Positions 51,920 to 56,205 of a stretch of DNA of 64,000 nucleotides are shown here, piece after piece. Source of the stretch: Desulfomonile tiedjei DSM 6799 (GTDB lineage Bacteria > Desulfobacterota > Desulfomonilia > Desulfomonilales > Desulfomonilaceae); the NCBI RefSeq assembly GCF_000266945.1, contig NC_018025.1, positions 2,046,001 to 2,110,000 on the forward strand, given 5' to 3'. The notes under the pieces were generated by a model. It was not told the origin of the DNA, searched no databases, and saw only the letters and a program-made list of their open reading frames with translations. The first letter of the stretch is position 1. Each line of letters opens with the position of its first letter. The position numbers and the translations under genes are program-made.

Positions 51920-53569
51920 TTACAATTGCTCGCGAATAGTCTTCTCGCGGGTTTCCATCCATTTCACAAAAGAATCGTACAAACGACGGAAGAGCGGGGA
52001 TCGGGAGGAAATTGCATGCAATTGCATCATTGCGCGTGGCCCGAAACGTTTGAGTCTGCGGTTTTCTGAAAAATCGAACAGGTTCCGGCAGCGAATCAGT
52101 TCAAGGTGCGGTCCAAGAATTTCACGGTGTCGAGCGTTTCTCTCCATGATAGAGTCATGGTCGGTTCCCCCCAATTCATCATACTCGTACTGTTCGCGTT
52201 CGAAGACCGGCCCGGACACTTTTCGAATATTTGTGAGCCCATAATGGTCCGATTTTTCAAACAGTAACGATTGCGGTTCCAGGAGAAAACGCTGCGGCAG
52301 TAACACAACCAGGGGCAAGTCCACGTAGCGGTCGATAAAGCCGGTCAAGTTCGAGAGAGTTTTCTGAGACTCATGGGGAGTATTGTACATCAGGTGCACA
52401 TAATTCTTTATTCCTATCGCAATGGCGTGCTCCAACAAATCGTGCATTTCCCGGACATCGAATCGTTTTCCCAAAAGATCCACTGTTCGAGGATCCGCGG
52501 ATTCGACTCCCCAGAACAAGCTGAAGCATCCGGCTTTCTTGCTTTTTTCCAGTACATCTTTGGAGCATCCTTTTACTCTGGCATACGCGTACCAGCGAAG
52601 ATCCGGCAATTCTTCGGCAATCCGATCGCATATATTCGATAGTTGCACAGGATTTCCGTTTATGGAAGCGTCAGCGAACTGCACGTTGTTCGTGCCGTAC
52701 GTACTGGTAAGATGCTTTAGCTCACGGATGACTTTGTCCTCGGATTTGTAATCGTATCGATCCACGAGCCTGCCTGTACAAAAACTGCACCGGGAAGGAC
52801 ATCCTTTGGAAATCCTGTATGGCAAGAAAAAAGTATTCTTGCCCGTCATTGGGTGTTCGTACCGATACTGGCTCAGATCGAGTCCTTCAAATTCCGGCGG
52901 AAATTCCTGTTCAGCAGGCAGATCTGATTTGGAATTGGTAATGATTCTGCCTTCATCGATATGCACCAGCCCAGGAATGCTCGCGAGGTCTAGCTCTCGC
53001 CTGCCTTTGAACAAGGCATGAAGCATCAGGAGCGGCAGTTCACCATTTCCCTTGACCCAGTAATCTGCAATGCCATGAGGAACAAACGATTCGGACGGTC
53101 GTATGGTTATGAAAGGCCCGCCAAAGACAATGAGTGCTTGCGGATTTGTCTCCCGTATGAACCTGCCCAGCAAGAGCGCTGCCCAGTACTGGTGATACGC
53201 GACAATGGAAAATCCGTAAATGCCTGCTCCAGAGGGAATCTTCGGCCCGTATTTTTCCACAAATTGTCGCAATCCCGGGTGATCGGCCGCACCTTTCAAA
53301 CTGTTGAAAAAGCTTTCCTGGGAAAATGTCCTGTCAGGGTTGTGATAATCGATATCATCCGGAGAATCGAAAAGATACTCCATCAGAAAATCCGTTTGGA
53401 TCACCGGCACTGAATGGTGCTTCAGAAACGCGTAGATAACGGACATACCGTAAGGCATGAATTTCGTGCGAAGATAACGTTTGCTGATCGCAGGAGGATG
53501 TACCAGCACCACTCCCGGATCGGAAGGAGAGCCCGAAAAGAGTGCCGTGTCCGGAAATTGTTCTTTCAT
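51920..53569 (-). CDS. B12-binding radical SAM protein
   Basis: A 549-residue enzyme. A B12-binding-like N-terminal domain (residues 15-205; VVLVHPPAISKRYL, GIYGFSIVAYHQYWAALLLG, ALIVFGGPFIT) is followed by a radical SAM core (about 250-450) with the cluster motif KGCPSRCSFCTGR and the strand block GVESADPRTVDLLGKRF. A C-terminal helical part completes it. It belongs to the large group that uses cobalamin and SAM radicals for methylation or rearrangement of lipids, peptides or cofactors. The substrate is unknown. It is downstream of the selenocysteine permease gene on the same strand; ATG 53569 follows that stop by 40 bp. Confidence 0.87.
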   Translation of the reverse strand: MKEQFPDTALFSGSPSDPGVVLVHPPAISKRYLRTKFMPYGMSVIYAFLKHHSVPVIQTDFLMEYLFDSPDDIDYHNPDRTFSQESFFNSLKGAADHPGLRQFVEKYGPKIPSGAGIYGFSIVAYHQYWAALLLGRFIRETNPQALIVFGGPFITIRPSESFVPHGIADYWVKGNGELPLLMLHALFKGRRELDLASIPGLVHIDEGRIITNSKSDLPAEQEFPPEFEGLDLSQYRYEHPMTGKNTFFLPYRISKGCPSRCSFCTGRLVDRYDYKSEDKVIRELKHLTSTYGTNNVQFADASINGNPVQLSNICDRIAEELPDLRWYAYARVKGCSKDVLEKSKKAGCFSLFWGVESADPRTVDLLGKRFDVREMHDLLEHAIAIGIKNYVHLMYNTPHESQKTLSNLTGFIDRYVDLPLVVLLPQRFLLEPQSLLFEKSDHYGLTNIRKVSGPVFEREQYEYDELGGTDHDSIMERNARHREILGPHLELIRCRNLFDFSENRRLKRFGPRAMMQLHAISSRSPLFRRLYDSFVKWMETREKTIREQL

Positions 53570-53609: not shown

Positions 53610-54764
53610 TCACCCCGCTCCTTTGGAATCAGTGTGTCCGCAAGAGCAGTCCGCGTGCGTCTTCTCGGGAGAATGTCTCCGCAGTCTTCCCGGCCAATTC
53701 GCTGCCGAGAGTTTCTGCAGCGCAACCCTCAACATCAGAACAGCAAGGAGCACAGCGGCGCCAGTCTCCAACCATTCAGGTACAAACTCTTTTGAGGCTT
53801 GACCGATCTCAGCGACCGCGTGGATTCCCAGAGCTCCGTAGATGAAATCTGTAAGAAAAGCCAGTCCCAGTGTGCACAGTACAATTGATACAAGATAAAC
53901 GGTCAGGGTGCGTCTTCCGAGAATCCCGGCTACCATGGTTACCGTGGCGATGTTGGTCGCAGGTCCGGCCAGAAGGAACACAAGAGCAGTACCCGGGCTC
54001 ATTCCTTTCAGGATCAATGCGGCAGCGATAGGCGTCGACATAGAGGCACACACGTACATCGGAAGACTCATCGCGAGCACTGCCAGGTATCCCAGAATGC
54101 CCGATCCGAAAACTCCTGAAATCAACGATTCAGGGACGCATGCCGTAATGATGCCGGCAAGCAGTATGCCAAGGAGAAACCATTTCAAAAGATCGCCCAT
54201 GAGTTCGTCGAACGCATAGCGCATTCCGGCGACAAGTTTTTCCGCAAACGAATGGTGCGCTGCGTGCACTGCGGGATCGCAATCCACGCCGTCGCAGCAG
54301 CCATCAACGAGACAGGTCCTATCCGGGACGGCCTCACGCGCTTCTCTGTACGATTTGCCGGTAAAATTCTCCAGGACGCCTGCAAACAGTGCCGTTGCAA
54401 ATGCCGCGAACGGCCGCAAGACAGTCATAATGGGATCCAAAAGAGAATACGTAATGGCAATGGAATCCACACCGCTCTCAGGAGTAGAGATCAGAAAAGA
54501 AAGACAGGCTCCGTTGTTTGCCCCCTGTTTTTTGAATCCCGCAACTGCGGGAACAACCCCGCACGATCAGAGCGGGATAGGGATTCCCAAAAGGGAAGCG
54601 TACAGCACTGACCTGAATCGACCTCGGTGGAAATAATGGGCAACCGAGTCGGGACGTATGTACACCCGAAGAAGCCCTGCGACGAAGAACCCGAGGAGTA
54701 TGTAAAGCGCTGCATCTGCAAACAATTTCACGGATGACATAAATATGACGAGAAGTGTTTCCAT
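53610..54764 (-). CDS. Selenocysteine-containing permease of the UPF0718/SO_0444 (ArsP-like) family
   Basis: A single 384-residue frame from ATG 54764 with one internal UGA at 54569-54567 (codon 66). In this permease family the segment is PLCSCGVVP. Here it reads PIPL-U-SCGVVPAVAGFKKQG, so UGA replaces the first cysteine of the conserved transport-site pair. Family features run on without a break on both sides: LLGFFVAGLLRVYI before, then FLISTPESGVDSIAITYSLL, GMSPGTALVFLLAGPATN and a second membrane bundle. The central loop has CLVDGCCDGVDCDP and the tail CSCGHTD, both metal-binding-like. A SECIS-like hairpin follows the UGA. The protein probably exports metals, metalloids or thiol-reactive species. 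A nonsense mutation is the alternative. No good ribosome site is seen; ATG 54740 is another possible start. Confidence 0.82.
54537..54552 (-). promoter_or_regulatory. SECIS-like hairpin of the permease gene
   Basis: The minus strand reads UCCCGC-AGUU-GCGGGA: a perfect 6-bp stem beginning at nucleotide 18 from the U of UGA, with GU in the loop at +25/+26. Its geometry is almost identical to the msrA element at 14965-14979. Confidence 0.72.
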
Positions 54765-54856: not shown

Positions 54857-55348
54857 CTAAGGGGATTTCCGATCCAATTTGTCGACTTTGTCGGACAATG
54901 CCGAAAGCTTGGCCTCCAACGCGTTCATTTTTGCCTGAAGTGCAGCGGCTGCACGCGCCTGTTCTCGAGCATCCTGTGTTGTATCCGGGCGCTTTAAGGA
55001 TTGCCTTACTTCACTGAGTTCTTCTTTGATACCCTGAAGCCCTTTAATTACAGCACGATCGTTGTCGAGAAAGGCTTGTGAATAATTCTGGATAGCTTTT
55101 TCGGCGGTTCCGCCTTTTTTCTGGAGATCTGCCAACATGCCATCGGATTTACGTTGCATGCGTTCGGCAGTATCCGCCATTCGGCTGGTATTGTAGACCA
55201 TGGCGGGCATGGTTGTGGACATGACCCCCATATAATGAACCATTTTATCCATATTGCCCTGGATACGGTTTACGTCGGGAAGACTCGCGCATCCGGATGC
55301 GAGCAACACCAATGACACAACAACGACTCTTTTCACGATTCCCAACAC
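54857..55348 (-). CDS. Coiled-coil lipoprotein, unknown function
   Basis: A 163-residue protein. The hydrophobic start VKRVVVVSLVLLASGC has a good lipobox (LASGC). The rest is almost wholly helical with heptad-like spacing: MVHYMGVMSTTMPAMVYNTS, MADTAERMQRKSDGML and a terminal coiled coil AKMNALEAKLSALSDKVDKL. Such small coiled-coil lipoproteins are often envelope spacers or transporter accessories, but no family is recognised. GTG 55348, 8 nt after AGGTGG, is preferred; the frame extends to 55432 inside the upstream gene. It follows the LolA-like gene on the same strand. Confidence 0.7.
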   Translation of the reverse strand: MLGIVKRVVVVSLVLLASGCASLPDVNRIQGNMDKMVHYMGVMSTTMPAMVYNTSRMADTAERMQRKSDGMLADLQKKGGTAEKAIQNYSQAFLDNDRAVIKGLQGIKEELSEVRQSLKRPDTTQDAREQARAAAALQAKMNALEAKLSALSDKVDKLDRKSP

Positions 55349-55419
55349 AATACGCCACCTATCTTTGCGGCTCCAAACAGCAGGTACTGTGTGAGCCGCG
55401 GGATAGAAGCAAAAATCAA

Positions 55420-56205
55420 TCAGCTTTTCCAACGAAATGTTCCGAACTTGGCCGGATCCGATATCTCTTCCGGAATCTCAATCCCGAAGACGGCGTTCTC
55501 CTGACGTATCAGCACACGGGTATCCTTTTCCGGAATGGTTATCTCCTCTGCTCTGGGAAACTCCCGTCCCTGCTCGGTCTTGAACATTTCGGTAACTCGA
55601 AACGTCCTCTTAACTTTTCCCGACCGATCGACAGCTTGGGTTTTCAGCAGGATAAAATCCTTCTTCGTAATCCACAACTGTCGCTCGGATGAATCGGACG
55701 GCTGTTCAATGCGAATCACATAACAATCCTTGCCGTCCACCTGTTCTTCTTTCAAGATCGAGGGTTTCTCGTCCGCCTTGGGAATGAAACCCTGGATGTC
55801 CTCAACAGATAGTCCTGTGCCGCCAAGATCCGCGGCAGGATCGTCCATGGCGAGAGGCAGGGTTTTTCCCGTTGCCGGTAAATACATGAATGCCTGCGCG
55901 CTCTTATTCGCGTCTACGAGAATCAAAAACCGAAGACCTTGGGATTCCTTAGGCTGCTCGAAATCCAGAAAAAAGGCATTCTTGTCACCGAGCCGCACGC
56001 CCATGAGCCATATGACGTTTTCCGACACGGTTTTTTTCCCTTTGAGGGTCTTTGAGGAAAGAACTATTCGAAAATTGTCGTTAAAATTCTGCTTCTCAAC
56101 CTGCTGGAGAATCTCATCCGCGGTCATCGCGTGGGCAGGGACGAATGAAAAACACATAAAGAACGTGAAGATAACAACGCTAAGAAGTTTTGAATGAAGA
56201 CGCAT
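55420..56205 (-). CDS. LolA-like outer-membrane lipoprotein-sorting protein
   Basis: A 261-residue exported protein. A signal peptide (MRLHSKLLSVVIFTFFMCFSFVPAHA) is followed by the LolA/LolB-like half-barrel family seen beside RND exporters: MTADEILQQVEKQN, LRFLILVDANKSAQAFMYLP, DIQGFIP, VIRIEQPSDSSERQLWITKKDFILLKTQ and EMFKTEQGREFP. Such proteins carry lipids or lipoproteins across the periplasm. The RND exporter at 11580-14144 is of the right class but far away. It probably shares a transcript with the following coiled-coil lipoprotein. Confidence 0.82.
   Translation of the reverse strand: MRLHSKLLSVVIFTFFMCFSFVPAHAMTADEILQQVEKQNFNDNFRIVLSSKTLKGKKTVSENVIWLMGVRLGDKNAFFLDFEQPKESQGLRFLILVDANKSAQAFMYLPATGKTLPLAMDDPAADLGGTGLSVEDIQGFIPKADEKPSILKEEQVDGKDCYVIRIEQPSDSSERQLWITKKDFILLKTQAVDRSGKVKRTFRVTEMFKTEQGREFPRAEEITIPEKDTRVLIRQENAVFGIEIPEEISDPAKFGTFRWKS

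Follow-up and report, generated by a model that had tools for sequence, protein, structure and literature searches.

A predicted selenocysteine in the putative transport segment of an SO_0444-family permease from Desulfomonile tiedjei and a second candidate selenocysteine site among its relatives

Introduction

The closest described counterpart of the gene analyzed here is an entry in Table 1 of a 2026 review, which lists, in the accessible part of the article, the SO_0444 family with the motif UxC, one selenocysteine (Sec) residue, the accession WP_014809615.1, and the remark "GenBank annotated" (PMC13188914). The accessible text of the review counts the SO_0444 family among the predicted Sec-containing transporters, and the bacterial SECIS (bSECIS) model that it gives has a stem of 4 to 16 bp, a loop of 3 to 9 nt with a G at loop position 1 or 2, and a spacing of 16 to 37 nt (PMC13188914). 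As for function, the available part of a study of Nitratiruptor describes an SO_0444-family gene whose expression rises in the presence of Cd(II) and Cu(II) and that adjoins a winged-helix regulator (PMC10092412).

Here, we analyzed a window of 64,000 nt from the genome of Desulfomonile tiedjei DSM 6799; coordinates given without a locus or contig are positions in this window, in which a permease gene carries an in-frame UGA codon. The number WP_014809615.1 fits the block of numbers of D. tiedjei, and we presume that the accession belongs to this species. The Table 1 entry is probably the window protein itself or a near relative. An earlier reading of the window, made from the letters alone (the sequence-only reading), did not take this permease family for a standard listed selenoprotein; the accessible table shows that it is one. 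Because the Sec form at residue 66 (site 1) is in that table, it is already known as a kind (PMC13188914).

Results

The permease gene ran on the minus strand from an ATG at 54764 to 53610, and translation confirmed that it was a single frame with one internal TGA, at 54569-54567, as the sequence-only reading had claimed. The gene's own terminator was also TGA (53612-53610). With the internal TGA read as U, the product had 384 residues (METLLV...GIPIPLUSCGVVPAVAG...DSKGAG). The protein matched the NCBIfam model NF033936 (SO_0444 Cu/Zn efflux) with 395.7 bits over residues 12-347, which passed the cut-off of 300, and the Pfam model ArsP_1 (PF03773) with 148.7 bits, which passed the gathering cut-off of 32.3. 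Thus, the ArsP-like assignment held and could be refined: as judged from these profile matches, SO_0444 is a more exact family than the UPF0718/ArsP label and is nested in ArsP_1. The family sequence was intact on either side of the UGA, and the frame was otherwise open.

Four Cys-containing features accompanied the predicted Sec66 (54567-54569, minus strand) of the PLUSCG segment. The first was Cys68 (54561-54563), the C of UxC, which was invariant beside residue 66 in an alignment of nine sequences. The second was a central Cys-rich loop (residues 151-162, CLVDGCCDGVDC; 54279-54314), which is the region in which relatives from another order have a second UGA in the motif GCGU. The third was Cys239 (54048-54050) in the sequence PMYVCASMSTP of the second half of the protein, also invariant in the nine sequences, and the fourth was a C-terminal CSCG (residues 373-376; 53637-53648), which was disordered in a structural model and may supply extra metal ligands. 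All four were on the minus strand.

A mechanical list of open reading frames (ORFs) split the permease gene into a 65-amino-acid ORF (54567-54764) and a 286-amino-acid ORF (53610-54470), as expected by the sequence-only reading. The same expectation for automated annotation probably does not hold for RefSeq, which seems to read the gene through, because the accessible part of the review lists the family as GenBank annotated (PMC13188914). Downstream of the UGA, the window gene and its nearest UGA-containing relative (L003) differed at 65 first, 34 second, and 171 third codon positions in 280 codons, and this pattern indicates that purifying selection acts on the frame after the UGA. These data bear on the idea of a regulated truncation, in which the UGA would mostly terminate translation and a minor, selenium-dependent read-through would tune the level of the exporter. 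Termination products are to be expected, because in vivo recoding at a bacterial Sec UGA was 30-40% according to the accessible part of PMC4513850, and the 65-amino-acid piece would be a single-membrane fragment. The downstream frame, however, was conserved as strongly as that of a normal gene, and we regard regulated truncation as very improbable.

To place the UGA among relatives, we used a homologue search that found matches at an E value of 0.001 or better in 32 of 42 genomes of the class (many of them distant paralogues) and matches at 1e-60 or better in 79 of 395 genomes of the phylum. A related-loci search gave 8 loci, partly on contigs already found. The non-redundant set consisted of 95 relatives and the window (n = 96); the duplicates L002, L016, L032, L033, L034, L035, and L038, the distant paralogues L020, L031, and L117 (with Cys codons at the column), and the fragment L019, which lacks the residue-66 column, were excluded. 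Apart from those listed, L021 to L030 had no tblastn match to count.

The residue-66 column contained a Cys codon (TGC or TGT) in 78 of the 96 sequences and UGA in the other 18, with no other codon. The UGA was therefore located where the family has the first Cys of PLCSCG, as the sequence-only reading had placed it, and the tblastn comparison that it had proposed as a check yielded UGA/Cys pairs at this column. Such Cys/Sec pairs are the sequence criterion for a bacterial selenoprotein, and residue 66 shows them. Besides the window, 17 non-redundant relatives had TGA at exactly this codon, the nearest being L003 with 72% identity; within the window's family, 10 sequences had UGA and 5 had Cys. 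A tree built with a quick method, from which the direction of change is not readable, gave at least 7 Sec/Cys switches, of which well-supported branches forced 3, and none of 500 shuffles had as few switches.

The predicted RNA hairpin after the window UGA was UCCCGC(AGUU)GCGGGA (54537-54552, minus strand), with a 6-bp stem that starts at base 18 (the U of UGA being base 1) and with the loop at 54546-54543, 20 nt from the UGA. The SECIS-like hairpin that the sequence-only reading had seen 18 nt from the UGA was thus recovered, and it lies within the stem, loop, G, and spacing limits of the bSECIS model as given in the accessible text, the free-energy criterion apart (PMC13188914).

Thermodynamic measures did not single out the UGA forms. 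A 60-nt fold starting at the window UGA was no better than shuffled sequences (z 0.14; 104 of 200 as good), and the two Rfam matches near this UGA were both far under their gathering scores. When each sequence was represented by its lowest stem-loop energy at a spacing inside the published limits, the UGA forms were not more stable than the Cys forms (means of -14.0 and -15.8 kcal/mol, respectively; p 0.95 for UGA lower). This test failed to separate the two forms because it chose long structures in GC-rich genes. In the same comparison, a G at loop position 1 or 2 occurred in 15/18 UGA forms versus 36/78 Cys forms.

We then scored ungapped local stems within a search range of 14-30 nt, a test chosen after the free-energy result had been seen. 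Stems of 5 bp or longer whose loop has a G at position 1 or 2 were found in 17 of the 18 UGA forms versus 23 of the 78 Cys forms (Fisher 3.7e-7), and the hairpin scores of the two groups also differed (Mann-Whitney 1.2e-6); these p values are too small, because the related sequences are not independent and kinship was not corrected for. Against a null of synonymous recoding, the median was 0.06 for UGA forms versus 0.535 for Cys forms, and values of 0.05 or less occurred in 7/18 and 8/78, respectively; the window's own hairpin was marginal (0.054). A similar hairpin was kept in some close Cys forms (L007, L008, and L009). In the 10 family sequences, the 6-bp stem was 95.0% paired. Its covariation was 0.296 versus 0.106 in shuffled alignments (3/500 as high), and slid partners reached no more than 0.115. 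Two pairs had changed on both sides, a number that 52/500 shuffles reached. The hairpins of other UGA forms differed in sequence and register, as in GCUGCC(GGC)GGCAGC.

The four genes that the sequence-only reading had named as a check, selA, selB, selC, and selD, were all found in the window's genome, with 512.9 bits for selA, 404.5 bits for selB, 69.5 bits for tRNA-Sec, and 367.6 bits for selD. Because the selD gene (L121, G000:C1:3873142-3874065) has an in-frame TGA of its own, its product appears to be a selenoprotein as well. We surveyed the machinery in 80 of 89 genomes, the nine left out (G070, G106, G205, G208, G217, G230, G245, G273, and G407) all being Cys forms. Matches over the curated cut-off were obtained for tRNA-Sec in 74/80 genomes and for SelB in 73/80, and both were present in all 22 genomes with a UGA form (18 with site 1 and 4 with the loop site only). 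The machinery is consistent with Sec yet does not discriminate, because most genomes with Cys forms have it too.

The window's genome also contained a second tRNA-Sec-like gene (L124:1235-1326, plus strand; RF01852, 51.9 bits, gathering score 47) with the anticodon GCA, which reads Cys codons. It directly precedes a second SelB gene (291.3 bits, G000:C1:3562952-3564838). The same pair was found in a relative from the genus (G011; L126:574-665, plus strand), and G198, G222, and G345 had a second tRNA-Sec match near a second SelB. Insertion of Sec at Cys codons is a known kind of recoding, and the gene pair suggests that it may take place here. Among the paper titles listed for tRNA-Sec and sense-codon Sec, none concerned D. 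tiedjei.

The column, frame, hairpin, and machinery data also bear on the possibility of a pseudogene or a sequencing error, in which the UGA would be a true stop and the permease would be broken. Such a defect would fit the way in which mechanical ORF calling splits the gene. It is already contradicted by the UGA at the same codon in 17 other non-redundant relatives, by the conserved downstream frame, by the enrichment of the hairpin, and by the full Sec machinery, and we consider its probability negligible.

In four relatives (L075, L082, L084, and L089), site 1 was Cys and an in-frame UGA was found in the central loop, in the motif GCGU. Another relative, L071 (G110:C25:114922-115869), had a UGA at site 1 (PLUSCG) as well as at the loop site (DASTU). 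To examine the loop site, we used the order of G259, in which 67 of the 136 genomes searched had a match at 1e-60. Twenty loci were obtained from this order, 12 of which had GCGU, including the proteins of L075, L082, L084, and L089, and the four remaining matches listed with a TGA had GCGU in 4/4 cases. This single other order of the phylum thus yielded 16 GCGU proteins (L130, L132, L133, L137, L139, L140, L143, and L146-L150, plus L127-L129 and L145).

In 16/16 GCGU proteins, a hairpin of 5-8 bp followed the UGA at a distance of 18 or 19 nt, with loops that were mostly AGUU(C/G) or GUU/GUG/GUC. For an alignment of the 7-bp stem, we used 12 sequences and left out L071, which has another register, and L147-L150. 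The stem was 94.0% paired, 11 cells had changed on both sides (0/500 shuffles), and covariation was 0.515 versus 0.258 when shuffled (0/500), with slid partners reaching at most 0.236. Less striking were the 4 pairs with a double change (39/500) and the 9 further pair types (92/500). In L144, the loop site read GCGC-P, which forms a Cys/Sec pair with GCGU. Three full-length or nearly full-length loop-Sec proteins and L071 matched NF033936 with 403.8-416.2 bits (cut-off 300), and those loop-Sec proteins that belonged to the first set grouped together on the tree (support 88).

Two further observations were made on these loci. The search output showed an in-frame TGA for L135 and L144 that was absent from column 66 onward and that possibly lies upstream of the true start. 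In L071, the site-1 hairpin was UGCCGCA(GGUC)UGCGGCG and contained GCAGGUCUGC, which we take to resemble the tip of the E. coli fdhF SECIS.

We found no published description of a second Sec site in the SO_0444 family in a search that covered mainly openly accessible papers. The accessible part of PMC13188914 does not mention two Sec residues or a second Sec, and the accessible parts of PMC5029168 and PMC9312934 do not mention SO_0444, permease, ArsP, or Desulfomonile. As far as this search reached, the GCGU loop site is undescribed in the literature.

A structural model of the window protein, built with nine sequences, was of middling confidence (pLDDT 68.8, pTM 0.68). In the model, Sec66 and Cys239 were located just before the helices 67-79 and 240-252, which were preceded by breaks at 61-66 and 234-239. 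The two residues look like two pseudo-symmetric half-sites in the model, and the Cys239 segment is likely the counterpart of the PLUSCG segment, if the inferred symmetry is right. The model resembled ArsB (10tp_A) with Z 14.4 over 280 aligned residues and an rmsd of 4.4, a score to be read with the pLDDT of 68.8 and with the fact that helical bundles can reach a Z of about 14. It also resembled NaCT (8uvb_A) with Z 14.3, and DASS, TRAP, and CNT transporters with Z from 14.4 downward. ArsB and the DASS, TRAP, and CNT transporters are elevator-type or related; the criterion for the IT/elevator-type fold is a pair of inverted repeats that carry helical hairpins. A Foldseek search with the model gave no match at an E value of 0.001 or below. 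A sequence search for solved structures gave one match, which was not credible (E 0.4).

A neighbor cluster was located beside the gene in 42 of the 96 loci, and the one representative that was scanned belonged to the ArsR family (PF01022, 46.2 bits, cut-off 22). The support for a soft-metal substrate comes from relatives, namely from their expression data and regulators, and Cu/Zn as the exported metals are suggested by the family name and the expression data of one relative. Beside the window permease itself, we saw neither a metal regulator nor another metal gene. Two genes were found upstream of the permease gene: one (54857-55432) encodes a small protein that matched no family, and the other (55420-56205) encodes a LolA-like protein. 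A radical-SAM gene (51920-53569, minus strand) was found 40 nt downstream, and it was on the same side in the window, L003, L004, L005, and L011; its protein was under every listed NCBIfam cut-off, the best being a PhpK-like model with 96.3 of the 600 bits needed. In L041 and L042, the ORF upstream of the SO_0444 gene looked ArsP-like (CSCTVLP motif), so two ArsP-like permeases may lie side by side in these loci.

The model and the neighbors are also relevant to a redox role of Sec66, in which a U66-S-C68 selenenylsulfide switch would gate or protect the transporter, or in which Sec66 would reduce an oxyanion or an organometal as it is exported. According to the accessible part of PMC13188914, the majority of selenoproteins are redox proteins, and UxC is a motif of the redox type. 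In addition, Cys68 is conserved together with residue 66, and the related SaoE comes from a system whose name refers to the selenium-assisted handling of organometals. In the model, however, the PLUSCG segment is in the membrane part of the transporter. The Sec of the loop site is in a Cys-rich motif that resembles a metal-binding loop and lacks the UxC spacing, and we saw no gene for a redox partner next to the window's permease gene. Weighing both sides, we judge a redox role to be unlikely.

Discussion

The results are probably best explained by an SO_0444 exporter in which Sec66 is inserted at the UGA under the direction of the hairpin and in which Cys and Sec bind metal in elevator-type transport. 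The family, the UGA/Cys column, the SECIS-like hairpin, and the Sec machinery are established at the level of sequence; we infer the ligand set, the elevator mechanism, the advantage of Sec, and the role of a selenol at the transport site. In this mechanism, SelB and tRNA-Sec would insert Sec at the UGA (54569-54567), directed by the hairpin (54552-54537), so that Sec would stand at the first Cys position in the invariant PL(C/U)SCG segment of the window exporter. The central Cys-rich loop and the C-terminal CSCG would gather a soft metal ion such as Cu(I), Zn(II), Cd(II), or a similar ion. Two broken helices would carry a binding site at their tips, formed by the selenolate of Sec66 together with Cys68 and probably Cys239, and an elevator-type movement would then export the metal ion. 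Compared to Cys, Sec may give tighter or faster metal binding or resistance to over-oxidation.

We also propose, more tentatively, that the SO_0444 family gained Sec at two places, PL(U)SCG and GCG(U), both of which carry UGA in L071, and that the selenolates might serve as cargo ligands in capture and translocation and not as redox catalysts. The repeated Cys/Sec swaps at a residue of the transport segment, plus those at a loop residue in another order, are natural test pairs for the effect of a selenolate on metal binding and export. If the second site is indeed unreported, annotation that is keyed to UxC alone could truncate GCGU proteins.

The predicted presence of Sec in probable metal exporters contrasts with known selenoproteins, which are mostly redox enzymes. 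The nearest described system is the SO_0444 entry in Table 1 of PMC13188914, which has the same family, the UxC motif, and one Sec in common with the window protein; in the accessible part of the review, it is a table row in which no SECIS, distribution, or second Sec site is described. ArsB and the DASS, TRAP, and CNT elevator transporters showed a weak-to-middling structural likeness to the model with a pLDDT of 68.8, and their identity to the window protein was 7-11%. SaoE (NF040736) of the SAO system is a distant relative with 164 bits over residues 3-309; the window protein, however, is far under the cut-off of 325, and no Sao genes were recognized beside its gene. The ArsP organoarsenical permeases share the ArsP_1 domain (PF03773) with the window protein, but the SO_0444 model describes this protein better.
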